Below, piece by piece: positions 12,901 through 18,414 of a stretch of DNA of 26,169 bases. Position 1 is the stretch's first letter; every line of letters starts with the position of its first letter. This DNA is from a virus: IMG/VR virus record IMGVR_UViG_3300025128_000280, positions 1 to 26,169 of that record. One strand, given 5' to 3'. The notes beneath the pieces are model-generated. The model was not told the origin of the DNA. It worked only from the letters and a program-made list of their open reading frames with translations, and ran no database searches. The translations under genes were made by a program, and so were the position numbers.

Positions 12901-15672
12901 AGAATTTTTGGCGCGTATGTGTTCCCTGATTGGCGTCCTCCCAACAGACTAACCGCTACAAAAAGAGAAAAAGATCAGCACAACGCTGCGGTCGAGCAGT
13001 TGGCAGCAATCTATGCAGAAAAACAAGGAACGCCAATAGAAGAAGCCACAGCACTAGCCGAAAAAGACCTAGATATTTTATACAGCGGCACAGGCCAGCA
13101 ACGAGCCGAGCTTTTTGTGTCCATGTTTGAGTTTACCCCACCCTATCTAACGGCTGAAACGGGGGGAGAAACCTTATTGTTGCCGCAACTTAAACAAAAA
13201 AGAGCGGACATTCCGAGCGAGGTAAGAAAAGCTTTGGGCGAAGTCACCGAGTCTTGGGCACAAGCACAAATGACCGCAATGAAACAAGAGCAGTTTATTG
13301 CTGTGACCGAATATTTATTAGAGTTAGCAGAAATTGGTAACGCCCCTGCAACACGTTTTCTTTCTTTGGTTGAAACACCAAACTACAACACACAAATCAC
13401 CGTTCCCGGAGATGTGCTAAACCCTCTTAACGGGTATTACACAACGCCTGCCATGGCGCAAGCGATTATGAAAACCATGGGTTACGGTCCGTTGCGCCGT
13501 TATTTAAACGACATGCCCGCACTCCTTAATCCTCTTAAGCAGCCTTTTTTAAGTGCACAGGGGGCCATGGGGTATATCTCTCTTGCTTATTTAAACCTCT
13601 CCATAAAAACACAAAGTAGAAACCTACAAAGCGCGATGTTCTTTCCTCAAATGTCGGGCAACTGGCAAGCGTATAAAAACCCGCGTGCAGCAGCACAGTA
13701 TATTAAAGAACAGTTTGGAGACATGTCTTCAGCGGAACTGGATTTTATTGTGAAAGAAAATATTATTGGCTCAAGTGTGATGCTCGGGGAGCGAAAAGCA
13801 ATGCTTGACAGAATGCAGGGCATGGCGACTTGGCAAGAGTTTACCGATTATTTAGAAGAAAGCGCTGTTAGCAGGGGAGAAAAAGGTAAAAAAGCTCTTC
13901 AAAGGTCGTTGCGCACAGCAGAAGAACTGTATCAACTGGCGGACGACATACCTAAAATAATGAACTATCTTGGAGAAAGAGAATCGGGTTTTGGTATCTT
14001 TGCTCCGGAAGGTGTTCAAAACTTAACCGAACAACAAATAGAAGATCGTTTTGACATGATCTCTGAGTTGATTGTTGAGCAGGGCGGTCGAAAGGTGACG
14101 CGTTCAAAAAGCACGCCGGCCGAGAACCTACAAAAAGCCATTCATGCTAGGGCTTCATTTCTTACTCGAAGAAACATTCCAAACTATAATCGGTTGCCGA
14201 ACATCCTTGACGCTTTAAGAATGGGTTTAGTTGCAAACTTTCCAGGTTTTAACACCGCGGTAATAACAAGCCAAGCAAACATTATGAAAACCGCGTTGCT
14301 GGAGCACCAATTGGCACACTCGGACGATCCCGCAATTGACGCTGGGTTAAAGTTTCGCTTGCAAAAAAGAGCGGCCATGCGCGGAGTGTCCAACGCTGCT
14401 TGGATGGTCGGACCAGGAACGTTTATGGCAGCCGCTTCTGCGCTACGCTTTGCAGGGAAAACAGCCAAAGTAGCAGGAATCAGTGTTGGGGCAACGGCAA
14501 TAATTGCTCCTCAAGCATTGTCTCGTTTTGTCGCTGAATGGGCGGTCAACAACAACCTTATTTTTGTGTCTGATCCCGATGAAGACGGCACATTTGAGGT
14601 CTATGATTTTTCGCACACGGATGGTTTTACGTTAATCTCTGAGCCGTCCAGGCTGCTCTTAAAGTATCTTGCCACCGACTATTATTTGGGTGAAGAGGCT
14701 TCAGACAAAGTTTGGGACACCCTTATGCAGTCTTTAAAGAACGTGCGATCAAGTTACACTGATGAAAAAATTATGAAAAGGGCGGTTTTGGAGTTTAGCA
14801 GCGGGAAAGACCGAGAAACAGGGAAATTCTACATAGATACAGAAGCGCCTTGGTGGGTGCAACTAAAAGACAAACTCGAACGGTTTATTAGCACTGTGTC
14901 GCCAAAAATTTTCCACGAAACCCTTGATATAGGAAAGGCTCTGGTGCTTACAGGAGAAGAAGCGCTGGATAAAAAAGGCAGAGAAAGAAATCTTTTGCGT
15001 TCTCTGGCCTATACTTTGGGGCTTAAAACCGAGCAATATACGCCTAAAGAAGTTATCCACGACTATAAAGTTTCTGATTTTACTACAGCATTAGAGACCA
15101 GCGAAAAATGGGCTAAAAGTGTTTTCTTTAGAGCCGAGGGCAGCGAACTGGGTTACGACGACATGCCGGCAATGGTTGCAGCTTACGATGAGTTGCAACG
15201 ACAACATTTTGAGCAGGTCAGAAATTTGCGTTTGGACATTCATTGGATGGCACCGATTCTTGGTACTTCTCCTGCTGAGACATTTAACTTTCTTGCACAA
15301 GAAGGTCGTCTCGAGTCTTTACGAACAGCGGACAGAGCAAACATCATACCGGATCGCAACGACAATCCGTTGTATGTGCCAACAAGTCTTTCCAGCTTTG
15401 TAAAGGCGTATGGTGGTCAGCTTAGAAAACTCCAAAGGAAAAACCCGGAGCTTTTATCAGATCAAGAGATAGAAGAACGCGTTAATACTTTGGCTGAAAG
15501 AATAGAAAGATTGTCTTATAACAAGTGGGCACAAAAACCTGTTTCATGGACATGGCAGGGGGTTGTTCAACAAGCAAGGGAGTTTGAAGAAAATAAAAAG
15601 AACCAAGACATTACAAGCCCAACAACGCTTTCTGACGAAGAGTTAAACGCTCTTTTTACTATAGAAGACTAA
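9937..15672 (+). CDS. Giant internal/ejection-type virion protein (1911 aa)
   Basis: This is the largest gene in the window. Order: an acidic, Pro-rich N-terminus beginning MASLTQAQLDELFSPEG; helical region with a hydrophobic segment (about 155-190, SFSMMAPLLAASIF, then PLITGMSLLTAG); a motif with SGRAEGLSHEDAFTYGAIDG recalling the helical linkers of phage polyvalent proteins; a strong coiled coil (about 370-470); mixed domains (480-1200); RRNIPNYNRLPNILDALR (about 1408), a motif I associate with giant marine phage virion proteins; a second hydrophobic region (about 1482-1530, AAWMVGPGTFMAAASALRFA and after); and a C-terminus ending TLSDEELNALFTIED. Size, helices and hydrophobic regions at both ends fit a T7 gp16-like ejected protein that forms a channel across the cell envelope. 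I saw no clear peptidase, lysozyme or polymerase motif. Confidence 0.6.
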   Translation: MASLTQAQLDELFSPEGTEIPPPPPEEEDLPDVRGQRKQSWREMVGEASLIKQQIGLDASEEVAETFEGIGPQIGQVFKNAKDALKLSALEASRYGFTQAPGAYAGIPKSIEERELLNQQIDEAAVELIKQIQLGIKKVEDLNPEDLNNLQQGIRSGVISFSMMAPLLAASIFTKSPTPLITGMSLLTAGDSYTSGRAEGLSHEDAFTYGAIDGFIEGVTEIIPAKTLLKLFPGAKDTAGRFSVNALKFLFQDIAGEQAATWLQNLNAYQYDLDKERLAIEDDPNLDGVEKEQLLGELAKKRAVITFFATLTAGGMQVGTAKMIDYGLSEKEIQESLNPQITEQLELFPNIGTEQTVAEGLLLLGQAQSGAVQSLNDLLEQKQGLLTDPTLKEDKKKQKAAIDEIDKQILEAEQKVERIEQTRIEFENNDERLKRLREIEEELEYSEDAQITAELEQEKTALLSEIKMEGPGTGVERLEPVEYTPFEIEEGVVGLENSPEAQKQKGKTGFFNSTVQRLYDELIEPRTAENIVIAYNTIRQKMADSGFVSDGVVDQKAPVVIKQAQKDLRRLLRLSKNLLNKRLAISRLQNKLADGTIEETEYNQKVLKNNQSIVETEANIDKIIERSQEPALTLPDLPENLENPYGVNSRFFVPKGFRRTIREKILPYRFNNVVVYRPTAEKEEVFQENLPEEEVDPMPKIPFKKIKYDSTIRLYFYDMAGTGTLEERALKDPLTGEVFYAEYDAIEFVDPLSGTLELNETLLPSIEMDGKTYQALWEPGTQSKALVKMMGDPAMSPDIMKEFYETKDPRILAAFWYDRYKSLFRPRGVRPTIMEELQTGPEGPIAKGRLSERQLNRIFRNIATIQKTLEKNIEKGLVKIKATIDDEGIIYESGDLGGSWKFYLDPVTTMDRFKELIAKSFRGNKKAQKELRRLGQGELVDAIVQGRKRISKNSRRIIDLVKKIDPDYTVYSKEKIEMIEDTIERYMGRIFGAYVFPDWRPPNRLTATKREKDQHNAAVEQLAAIYAEKQGTPIEEATALAEKDLDILYSGTGQQRAELFVSMFEFTPPYLTAETGGETLLLPQLKQKRADIPSEVRKALGEVTESWAQAQMTAMKQEQFIAVTEYLLELAEIGNAPATRFLSLVETPNYNTQITVPGDVLNPLNGYYTTPAMAQAIMKTMGYGPLRRYLNDMPALLNPLKQPFLSAQGAMGYISLAYLNLSIKTQSRNLQSAMFFPQMSGNWQAYKNPRAAAQYIKEQFGDMSSAELDFIVKENIIGSSVMLGERKAMLDRMQGMATWQEFTDYLEESAVSRGEKGKKALQRSLRTAEELYQLADDIPKIMNYLGERESGFGIFAPEGVQNLTEQQIEDRFDMISELIVEQGGRKVTRSKSTPAENLQKAIHARASFLTRRNIPNYNRLPNILDALRMGLVANFPGFNTAVITSQANIMKTALLEHQLAHSDDPAIDAGLKFRLQKRAAMRGVSNAAWMVGPGTFMAAASALRFAGKTAKVAGISVGATAIIAPQALSRFVAEWAVNNNLIFVSDPDEDGTFEVYDFSHTDGFTLISEPSRLLLKYLATDYYLGEEASDKVWDTLMQSLKNVRSSYTDEKIMKRAVLEFSSGKDRETGKFYIDTEAPWWVQLKDKLERFISTVSPKIFHETLDIGKALVLTGEEALDKKGRERNLLRSLAYTLGLKTEQYTPKEVIHDYKVSDFTTALETSEKWAKSVFFRAEGSELGYDDMPAMVAAYDELQRQHFEQVRNLRLDIHWMAPILGTSPAETFNFLAQEGRLESLRTADRANIIPDRNDNPLYVPTSLSSFVKAYGGQLRKLQRKNPELLSDQEIEERVNTLAERIERLSYNKWAQKPVSWTWQGVVQQAREFEENKKNQDITSPTTLSDEELNALFTIED

Positions 15673-16345
15673 ACTGGTCCACTCTCTCGTTCCAAGCCTC
15701 AACGGCGCGGTCAAACTCACGGCTTTCCAGAACAAACTCTTGATAAAAGCCGTCCACTGAGCACATCATAATGACGCCTTTTCTGATGTCAGTGCCATGT
15801 AGTGCGTTGTGCGCTGTCGCATAAGCGGCAAGTTGTTGAAAATAGTCCCAAACGTAACGTCTGCTCTTCTTAGGTATATTGGTTTGTTTAAAGTCCATAA
15901 TGGCCTCTTCACCCAAATGTTTGCCGATCACATCTGCGGTGCCGGCATACTTACCCGGATAATATAAAGGCACTTCACAGCCATACACTTGGTCAATGGA
16001 CGGAAACCCTTGGTCCATGATGGTGCAAGCCATTTTATAGGCTCTCTTTTTTTCGTGGGTGTCTGGGTAATAGTTCCAAATACTGCCTTCTTTTAACTGT
16101 TTTTCAAGAATAGCGTGCATTTCGCTACCGCGAGCAGCGGCTTCGCTGCGTATACGCTCGGCTTCCTCTTCTCCCACCTTCTCAACCCATTTTTTCAGGC
16201 TGTCTCCTTTCTTGGTTCCGGACAAGATAGTGGTGACAGAGGGAAGTTTTTCCTCTCCGTAAATATAAAGACGTCTACCGTCTTCTGTCTCCTGTGTGAG
16301 CTCTACGTATTCGTAGGGAGATTCAAACGGTATATCGTGTTTCAT
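15659..16345 (-). CDS. RecB/Cas4-type PD-(D/E)XK exonuclease
   Basis: 228 residues. The nuclease core is readable: LPSVTTIL (34-41), the metal-binding His of RGSEMH (His77), Asp138 in GTADVI, the D-F-K of motif III (Asp151, Lys153, MDFKQTN) and the helical QxxxY motif (Gln171-Tyr175, QLAAY). This His-Asp-Asp-x-Lys-QxxxY set defines RecB/AddB/Cas4/lambda-exo-like nucleases of the PD-(D/E)XK superfamily, which degrade or resect DNA ends. Length matches stand-alone phage versions, and no Fe-S cysteine cluster of the Cas4 type is obvious. The start overlaps the small upstream gene by TAATG. Its tail overlaps the giant virion gene on the other strand by 14 bases. A role in recombination or host DNA breakdown is inferred. 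Confidence 0.85.
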   Translation of the reverse strand: MKHDIPFESPYEYVELTQETEDGRRLYIYGEEKLPSVTTILSGTKKGDSLKKWVEKVGEEEAERIRSEAAARGSEMHAILEKQLKEGSIWNYYPDTHEKKRAYKMACTIMDQGFPSIDQVYGCEVPLYYPGKYAGTADVIGKHLGEEAIMDFKQTNIPKKSRRYVWDYFQQLAAYATAHNALHGTDIRKGVIMMCSVDGFYQEFVLESREFDRAVEAWNERVDQFSLL

Positions 16346-16491
16346 TATTTGACGTTTTCTTTCTTTGCCATTTCTTTAATGGCTTGCGCAAAAACATTGC
16401 TCGTAGGTCTTTCGGTGTGTGTACCAATCCTCCTGGCTAGTTCTACTATTTCTTTGCGTATAGCTACGCTTTTCCACTTTTTAGTGTTCAT
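16345..16491 (-). CDS. 48-residue ribbon-helix-helix (Arc/MetJ-type) DNA-binding protein
   Basis: The start codon (CAT on + at 16489-16491) has AAGGAG (16497-16502 on +) five bases upstream. The protein has a beta strand with KSVAIRKE (about 7-14), a helix VELARRIG (16-23), a turn THTERPTS (24-31) and a helix SNVFAQAIKEMAKK (31-44). This strand-helix-turn-helix order, with alternating strand residues and the S-N-V-x-x-Q-A-I second helix, is the RHH fold signature; RHH dimers bind short operators. The stop overlaps the nuclease start (TAATG), so the two are translationally coupled. An own promoter and a 19-base palindrome lie just upstream, which suggests autoregulation of this two-gene unit. 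Confidence 0.7.
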   Translation of the reverse strand: MNTKKWKSVAIRKEIVELARRIGTHTERPTSNVFAQAIKEMAKKENVK

Positions 16492-16518
16492 AGGTTCTCC
16501 TTATGTTTTATCTGATAG

Positions 16519-16548
16519 ATTATAATACAAGTCTCTCAATATATACAA
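16519..16548 (-). promoter_or_regulatory. Leftward sigma70-like promoter for RHH-nuclease pair
   Basis: Reading the minus strand, a consensus -10 TATAAT (16519-16524) is preceded by an 18-base spacer and a weak -35 TTGTAT (16543-16548). Transcription would start near 16511, about 20 bases before the RHH start codon. It sits in the 63-base AT-rich gap after the polymerase stop, the only internal gap of the leftward operon with a good -10. Confidence 0.6.
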
Positions 16549-16556
16549 CATATATT
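16538..16556. promoter_or_regulatory. Operator-like inverted repeat over the -35 box
   Basis: AATATAT (16538-16544) and ATATATT (16550-16556) are perfect reverse complements around ACAAC, making a 19-base palindrome that covers the -35 hexamer of the RHH promoter and touches the polymerase stop codon. Its size and position fit an operator for the adjacent RHH protein. Pure A/T arms can occur by chance, which lowers confidence. Confidence 0.45.
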
Positions 16557-18414
16557 ATGACATTGAGTCGCCCCAGTTTTCTCCTATTTCCGCGTCCACT
16601 TTGTTCGGCACTTCGAGCAGCACGGCTTTTTCCATGGTCTTGACTATGCCTTCAACCTCCTTTTTATCGGAAACCGAGAAGACAAGTTCATCGTGTACCT
16701 GTAATAAAGGCCTATAGGACGCATTATAACAGTCCAGCATCGCTTTTTTCGTCATATCTGCTGCTGACCCCTGGATCAGCTTGTTCAACGCCTTATAAAC
16801 GAAAGCACGTTTTATGTCTCCATTGTATTCGTGCATCGCTTCTTTGTGTTTCATTGGTCGACCTGTCCCGTACTGACGTGGTTCCCACATATCAAAATGG
16901 CAGCGTCGTCCGAGTAGGGTTTTAATATACCCTCGTGTGGTTGCACTACGCATAACCGTGTCAGCCATTTGTCTAACAAAAGGCGCGTAAGTGTTAAACC
17001 GCATTAAAATATCACTGGCTTCTTCAACATCCACTCCTAACTGGTCGGCCAACTTGCCTTTGCCCATGCCGTACATAATGCCAAGACCAATGGTTTTAGC
17101 GGTTTTGCGATCAATGCCTACCAATTCCGCAACCTCTTGGTGAAAGTCTGCTTCCCCGGTAACATAGGCTTCTGCAATCATATCGGCTCCATCGTATCGA
17201 GAACGATAGGCAAAATGAGTTAATATTCTGGGTTCTTGTTGTGAAAAATCTGCCGAACACCATTTTTGTCCTTCTTCTGGGAGAAACAAAGAACGGATAA
17301 GCGGACCCAGTTCCTTATCTCTTGCCGGGACCTGTTGTAAATTGGGGTTGCTCATGGACAATCTTCCCGTCACCGTGCCTCCGGCCTCTCCTTTAAGTTG
17401 TCTAATATCAGCATGAATCCTGCCATTGTGCTCGTGCTTGATGATGGTGTCGATAAAGGTTTTGTGGGCTTTGTTCAGTTCTCTTACGCGCATAATCATC
17501 TGCGCCACGGGGTGTTCCTGATTAGCTAAAAACGCTTTGGTGAAACTAGGGTTGCCTTTAGCCGTATGGCTGTAAGGAATTTTGCAAGCATCAAAGACTT
17601 GTGCCACAGAGTTGGCTGCCCAAACTCTGACGTCTTTAATTCCTGATTCTTTTTCCACATCTTTTAAAGTTTTTTCTTCCTGTTTAACCAACTGCTTCTT
17701 TAATTGGTCGGCTCGCTCCAGGTCAACGCGTACCCCTGTTGTTTTCATGTTAAACAGCACCGGAAATAAATCCGTTTCCAGGTTAAAAATGTTCCATAGG
17801 TTCTGGTCTTCAAGGTGTATTTTAAAATGGTTCCAAAGCTTTAAAGTGAGTGCCGCGTCTTGCGTGGCATAGGTGCCAACATACGCTGAAGGCAATCGCC
17901 ACATCTCTGCTTTAGGATCAACCCCCCACTCCTCGGCGGCTTGTCTGAGCTCTGCTTCGGATTTACCTTCTTGTAAATACTCTATGCCAAGGGAATTAAG
18001 GGTGTACCAATACATGTTCTCATTAATTAAAGGCGCCACAACCATAGTGTCTACAACGCGACCTTTAACCTCAATCCCTGCTTGTCTTAACCAGCCGACA
18101 TCGTACATGGCGTTATGAAACACTTTGTCGTTGTCTCCGGACACAACGTCTTTAACAAACTGCAAGACTCTTTTCTTGGGAAAGTTAAAGCCGGCTTCAT
18201 GGGCAAAAGGAAAATAGTCGGCATAGCCGTCACAGGCAACGGAAACCCCGACGATCTCTCCATCGCCTCTGATGTAACCGGGGCCTTTGCTCTTTAGATT
18301 AGGGTCTCGAGTCTCGAGATCGACGGCAATTTCATCGGCATCAAGTAATTTTTGCGTAGGGAAAATATCCGGTGGTGTCCATTCTGTTGGGGGCTGAAAT
18401 GTTTTATAGGCCAT
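16555..18414 (-). CDS. polA: Family A DNA polymerase with 3'-5' exonuclease (Leu at Pol I position 762)
   Basis: 619 residues, the replicative polymerase. The N-terminal DnaQ-like proofreading domain has ExoI Asp32/Glu34 (VDLETRD), ExoII Asp105 (HNAMYDVGWL) and ExoIII Tyr182/Asp186 (YATQD). The polymerase domain has motif A Asp389 (ADFSQQEPR, with Q-Q-E-P instead of Q-I-E-L), the O-helix of motif B from Arg436 to Gly449 (RKTAKTIGLGIMYG; Arg436, Lys440, Tyr448 match E. coli R754, K758, Y766) and motif C His574-Asp575-Glu576 (VHDEL). All catalytic residues are present; no 5'-nuclease domain is present, as usual for phage versions. Leu444 aligns with E. coli Phe762. The start overlaps the helicase gene by 11 bases. 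Confidence 0.95.
   Translation of the reverse strand: MAYKTFQPPTEWTPPDIFPTQKLLDADEIAVDLETRDPNLKSKGPGYIRGDGEIVGVSVACDGYADYFPFAHEAGFNFPKKRVLQFVKDVVSGDNDKVFHNAMYDVGWLRQAGIEVKGRVVDTMVVAPLINENMYWYTLNSLGIEYLQEGKSEAELRQAAEEWGVDPKAEMWRLPSAYVGTYATQDAALTLKLWNHFKIHLEDQNLWNIFNLETDLFPVLFNMKTTGVRVDLERADQLKKQLVKQEEKTLKDVEKESGIKDVRVWAANSVAQVFDACKIPYSHTAKGNPSFTKAFLANQEHPVAQMIMRVRELNKAHKTFIDTIIKHEHNGRIHADIRQLKGEAGGTVTGRLSMSNPNLQQVPARDKELGPLIRSLFLPEEGQKWCSADFSQQEPRILTHFAYRSRYDGADMIAEAYVTGEADFHQEVAELVGIDRKTAKTIGLGIMYGMGKGKLADQLGVDVEEASDILMRFNTYAPFVRQMADTVMRSATTRGYIKTLLGRRCHFDMWEPRQYGTGRPMKHKEAMHEYNGDIKRAFVYKALNKLIQGSAADMTKKAMLDCYNASYRPLLQVHDELVFSVSDKKEVEGIVKTMEKAVLLEVPNKVDAEIGENWGDSMS

Follow-up and report, generated by a model that had tools for sequence, protein, structure and literature searches.

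The interval between the polymerase and exonuclease genes of this virus raises the question of whether it encodes a regulator of its own, and whether that regulator controls the nuclease which follows it. The window, i.e., the whole stretch of DNA analysed here, is a 26,169-base virus record in which the structural genes lie on the + strand and a replication operon on the - strand. The operon comprises, in this order, an AEP-type primase, a UvrD-like helicase, DNA polymerase A, a gene of 48 codons, and a PD-(D/E)XK exonuclease. An Rfam scan of the window and a tRNA search have remained empty. The features of the locus are:

16555..18414, - strand: DNA polymerase A gene (polA), upstream neighbour (Pfam DNA_pol_A, 8e-69)
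16538..16556, - strand: proposed operator, imperfect inverted repeat AATATAT-GTTGT-ATATATT (AATATATGTTGTATATATT) (sequence; relatives)
16543..16548, - strand: weak -35-like hexamer TTGTAT inside the palindrome, with an 18-nt spacer to the -10 hexamer (sequence inspection)
16519..16524, - strand: -10 hexamer TATAAT (sequence; conserved upstream of the start outside clade D)
16497..16503, - strand: Shine-Dalgarno region AAGGAGA, approximate (sequence inspection)
16345..16491, - strand: gene of the 48-aa protein, most likely ribbon-helix-helix (RHH) (MNTKKWKSVAIRKEIVELARRIGTHTERPTSNVFAQAIKEMAKKENVK) (ORF; conservation; dN/dS; PHROG 3180; Foldseek)
15659..16345, - strand: PD-(D/E)XK (Cas4/RecB-like) exonuclease gene, 228 aa, proposed co-regulated target (phrog_298, 1.1e-46 over residues 7-214)

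Comparison with relatives shows that a genuine coding gene of 48 codons occupies 16491-16345 (-) and that it is conserved. A sequence-only reading had proposed a short hidden gene here that overlaps the nuclease, and both points have been borne out: the open reading frame begins with ATG behind an AAGGAG Shine-Dalgarno sequence, its TAA stop overlaps the nuclease ATG as TAATG, and a scan with the protein alignment has detected homologues at 73 viral loci. Purifying selection acts on the gene (median dN/dS 0.12 over 47 distinct codon stretches), and its differences pile up at third codon positions (19,922 vs 6,307 and 4,653). Across the phage family, which consists of uncultivated marine phages, the protein measures 48-57 aa, and in the complete loci of the main family polA lies immediately upstream and the same Cas4/RecB-like exonuclease immediately downstream, except for contig L100 and the loci with a peroxiredoxin insert described below. 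Among the relatives compared, the reading frame has been kept everywhere, as that reading would have it, while the palindrome is missing from one related clade. A tblastn search of the RHH protein against phage records has given no match; the named phages nearest by polymerase are 023Pt_psg01 (53%), HTVC023P (51%), DSL-LC04 (50%) and HTVC027P (49%), of which HTVC023P and HTVC027P are Pelagibacter phages. Longer relatives of 72-80 aa that share MDIxKWKSVAI occur in L118-L122 and L125; polA lies ~1.5 kb upstream in L118-L122, and a nuclease match has not been found in the examined flanks.

The RHH pattern claimed for the protein is supported by the match of the window protein to PHROG 3180 'Arc-like repressor' (E 3.8e-6) and by Foldseek, where Arc structures occupy ranks 1-9, with weak E-values of ~1 to 4, in a list that also includes CopG, CdbA, SvtR and TacA. 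PHROG 3180 matches 26 of 28 members over nearly their full length with weak scores (best ~1e-6), and its threshold in the genome-wide search has been reached by some contigs, not all. Searching the RHH family against Pfam has returned chance matches only, with no Pfam RHH model matched, as has a PDB sequence search, in which Arc was not found; a distant homologue in 023Pt_psg01 (KYKSLSVP...) reaches E 0.0023 and 18.3 bits against Pfam RHH_1, under the 20.5 cut-off. The AlphaFold monomer (mean pLDDT 89) consists of two predicted helices, residues 3-26 and 30-44, with residues 27-29 as the joint between them. Superposition of this helix pair on Arc gives an rmsd of ~1.1-1.3 over 33-34 residues; VIA-align Z-scores do not exceed 4.8, with an unrelated enzyme as the one top-ranked match. 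The N-terminal segment, expected to build the intermolecular ribbon, is predicted to be helical in this monomer (residues 3-10), and the strand may form solely in the dimer. Its sequence W-x-S-V-A-I-R is invariant across the main family, and the invariant residues concentrate in WxSVAIR and TER..S.VFA, which is the pattern to be expected if, by analogy to Arc and CopG, the first were the DNA-reading strand and the second the dimer core. From sequence profile and fold comparison, the 48-aa protein is most likely an RHH protein.

Regarding its promoter, the consensus TATAAT noted earlier is present at 16524-16519 (-), and, clade D apart, every lineage has the same hexamer (TAAAAT in the L088 clade) ahead of the start codon. 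A perfect 19-base palindrome over the -35 box had also been described. Its coordinates (16538-16556) are exact and the -35-like TTGTAT, though weak, lies inside the repeat by position count, but perfection has to be withdrawn: in AATATATGTTGTATATATT an asymmetric GTTGT separates two perfect arms of 7 bp, which gives 7 matching pairs out of 9. The polA stop codon (16557-16555) overlaps the upstream end of the repeat. Owing to the weakness of TTGTAT as a -35 box, the promoter escaped a generic sigma-70 scan, and the single-strand structure at the promoter has a z of -0.74 (folded as DNA). The repeat is AT-rich, and its score has P ~0.10 when compared with dinucleotide-shuffled versions of the same 80 bp; consequently the window alone does not establish the palindrome, and the case rests on the relatives.

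In the mechanism that we propose, the gene of a short Arc/CopG-type RHH protein, located where the replication operon ends, would be driven by a sigma-70-like promoter of its own, and dimers of the protein would bind the inverted-repeat operator over the -35 region and block RNA polymerase. Transcription of the RHH gene and of the overlapping exonuclease gene would thereby be shut off; after infection, the nuclease would consequently appear in a pulse or stay below a ceiling. We consider it likely that the protein limits its own and the nuclease transcription in this way, as a P22 Arc-like autorepressor; dimerisation, DNA binding, repression, its timing and any advantage of keeping nuclease levels down are what we infer, and nuclease could also be supplied by read-through from polA. 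Such a circuit suggests that the phages actively restrain the dosage of an exonuclease associated with replication.

An inverted repeat overlapping the RHH promoter is present in lineages A, including the window, and B. The B-lineage operator reads TTAGGATATATCCTAA or TTAAGATATATCTTAG, covers the -35 region, and is centred 17 nt before the -10 hexamer. The arms of B-type sites pair to 85% in Watson-Crick fashion at the true centre vs 22-43% when the centre is shifted by up to 5 bp. Of 17 distinct B-type sites, 8 have A:T at pair +/-5, 6 have G:C and 3 the intermediate G:T, and on the polymerase tree there are two changes in the left arm and four in the right, with contigs that form two independent pairs; the covariation is limited to one operator pair, and two independent pairs are too few to reach significance. 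In a search of 14 contigs for the operator types, a close operator-like site occurs once per contig in types A, B and C, the window included, at the RHH promoter, which argues for a local switch and against a global regulator with many sites in these types. The type-C repeats TTATAC-TTTT-GTATAA are no better than chance (P 0.2-0.7) and largely reflect the -10 box.

The self-repressing promoter-operator layout is well supported by comparison in the A and B lineages; it does not extend to clade D. This clade, whose 15 rows in the polymerase tree are set apart from the other groups with clear support, has kept the RHH gene without such a palindrome or a well-placed promoter, its TATAAT being absent or too near the start. 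Accordingly, either this operator is not universal and the mode of control differs in clade D, or the RHH protein acts elsewhere there and has other targets. An alternative palindrome at the end of polA in clade D (TGACTCCATGGAGTCA, GGTGATTCTATGGAATCACC; P 0.003 in L025 and L020) has been rejected, as its pairing is broken in neighbouring D sequences. The protein might also mainly regulate other phage or host promoters, or be an architectural DNA-binding protein, with autoregulation being secondary or lineage-specific; clade D is compatible with this, as are distant RHH-like proteins with the same K[WY]KS strand at the N-terminus in HTVC023P, HTVC027P and psg01, whose genes lie apart from polA and have no nuclease gene next to them. 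Against such a wider role, the one close site per contig of the A, B and C lineages lies only at the RHH gene, and the linkage of RHH gene and nuclease persists outside the polA context in L100, which makes this role rather unlikely to be the main one. The misfits of clade D and type C are the reason why it keeps this weight, and why autorepression is held as likely and not more firmly. The small K[WY]KS proteins are annotated as hypothetical (HTVC027P, L158:11641-11820; HTVC023P, L159:8506-8727; 023Pt_psg01, L160:690-866), and AT-rich intergenic DNA resembling a promoter lies ahead of those in HTVC027P and psg01.

The inverted repeat could, on the other hand, be merely AT-rich promoter DNA on which the RHH protein does not act, in line with the P value of the window palindrome and with type-C repeats that the -10 box mostly accounts for. 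This is contradicted by perfect arms of 11 bp in L006 (TCCTAATATAT-GTTGT-ATATATTAGGA) and 12 bp in L017, by the changes that two distinct clades of B-type contigs show in both operator arms, by the constant distance to the -10 hexamer, and by the L088 group, in which the repeat has been retained with its GATATATC core despite a polA stop codon that has moved downstream, so that we regard this explanation as very improbable.

The nuclease, beyond its phrog_298 assignment, matches Pfam PDDEXK_1 at 0.0043, under the cut-off of that model, and PADLOC Cas4 at 0.0024. The notion that it is toxic is unsupported: the phrog_298 exonuclease family is common (498 phage records), and the four cultured phages checked carry the nuclease without an adjacent RHH gene. 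A type II toxin-antitoxin pair, in which an RHH antitoxin binds and neutralises the downstream nuclease, is suggested by the small RHH gene directly upstream, the TAATG overlap and the palindromic promoter, and RHH antitoxins such as RelB, CopASO, TacA and VapB share the fold and an autoregulated promoter with palindromes, but those antitoxins have an extension that binds the toxin, and each has a cognate toxin. Neither has been seen here, where the 48-aa protein is RHH only, PADLOC returns no toxin-antitoxin match, and a peroxiredoxin gene splits the two partners in two small separate groups (L007 and L103-L105), so that the antitoxin-like reading is most improbable. Membership in the type II class thus fails for want of a toxin-binding region and of an obligate cognate toxin, and by the separability of the partners. 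The inserted peroxiredoxin is AhpC-like with a FYPKDFTFICPTE motif, identified by eye (L007:4148-4670, L105:4330-4850), and in L105 a further small ORF of ~60 aa precedes it.

Compared with known systems, the autorepressor that we propose resembles Arc of the P22 arc-ant (immI) operon, the closest fold match to the 48-aa protein and likewise a short phage RHH protein whose gene precedes that of the protein it controls. The controlled protein proposed here is a PD-(D/E)XK exonuclease, whereas in P22 it is the antirepressor; furthermore, the cassette sits in a replication operon, and the proposed operator covers the -35 region, presumably unlike the P22 site. Autogenous control of P22 arc has been described (Youderian et al., 1982, from the reference list of PMC2629481). 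In the MobC-nic operon of plasmid RA3, MobC is an RHH autorepressor of a bicistronic operon that it shares with a DNA-cleaving enzyme, a relaxase, and it acts via an imperfect palindrome in the promoter (PMC4175270). Perfecting this palindrome did not improve binding (PMC4175270), and imperfection is therefore no argument against an operator. MobC differs in its size of 176 aa, in its additional stimulation of conjugative transfer, in its relaxase partner, and in an operator that lies between -35 and -10 (PMC4175270). The literature searched contains no description of an Arc-like layout with such a nuclease. The RHH-nuclease cassette, real and conserved and probably self-repressing, adds a conserved autoregulatory element to the replication genes of mostly uncultivated marine phages, in a gene so small that it is easily overlooked.

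The window itself combines parts of different descent. Its polymerase groups with those of L109 and L113 (96% identity to L113, support 100/99), both of which carry an RHH gene and promoter of type C, whereas promoter, RHH gene and nuclease of the window are of type A, and the nuclease tree places it with four other A contigs (support 100/100). DNA identity between the window and L113 is ~95% in most of polA and ~70% in the RHH gene. The RHH-nuclease pair of L100 lacks a polA upstream; it follows a terminator with a 15-bp stem and has its own TTGTTA-17-TATAAT, and with this terminator-bounded start and promoter the unit can stand alone. Promoter, RHH gene and nuclease behave as a cassette that is exchanged between phages with near-identical polymerase. 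More tentatively, and with some doubt, one RHH family with an invariant WxSVAIR strand may pair with at least two operator designs, TATATTA half-sites spaced by 7 bp in type A and abutting TATCTTA/TATCCTA in type B, perhaps also with a third that spans the -10 of type C, and be swapped as an operator-regulator-nuclease cassette; if true, it would offer a natural series for a minimal repressor that re-tunes operator spacing with its contact residues unchanged. Compensatory operator changes and cassette exchange would together form a testable natural series for repressor-operator co-evolution. Near the contig end of L088, a second, inverted nuclease-like fragment (L088:4972-5104, E 3.7e-11) is possibly an assembly artefact. 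Two contigs assigned to MAGs of Rhodopirellula and Maricaulis, L123 and L124, also contain the polA-RHH-nuclease block and are most likely mis-binned phage DNA.
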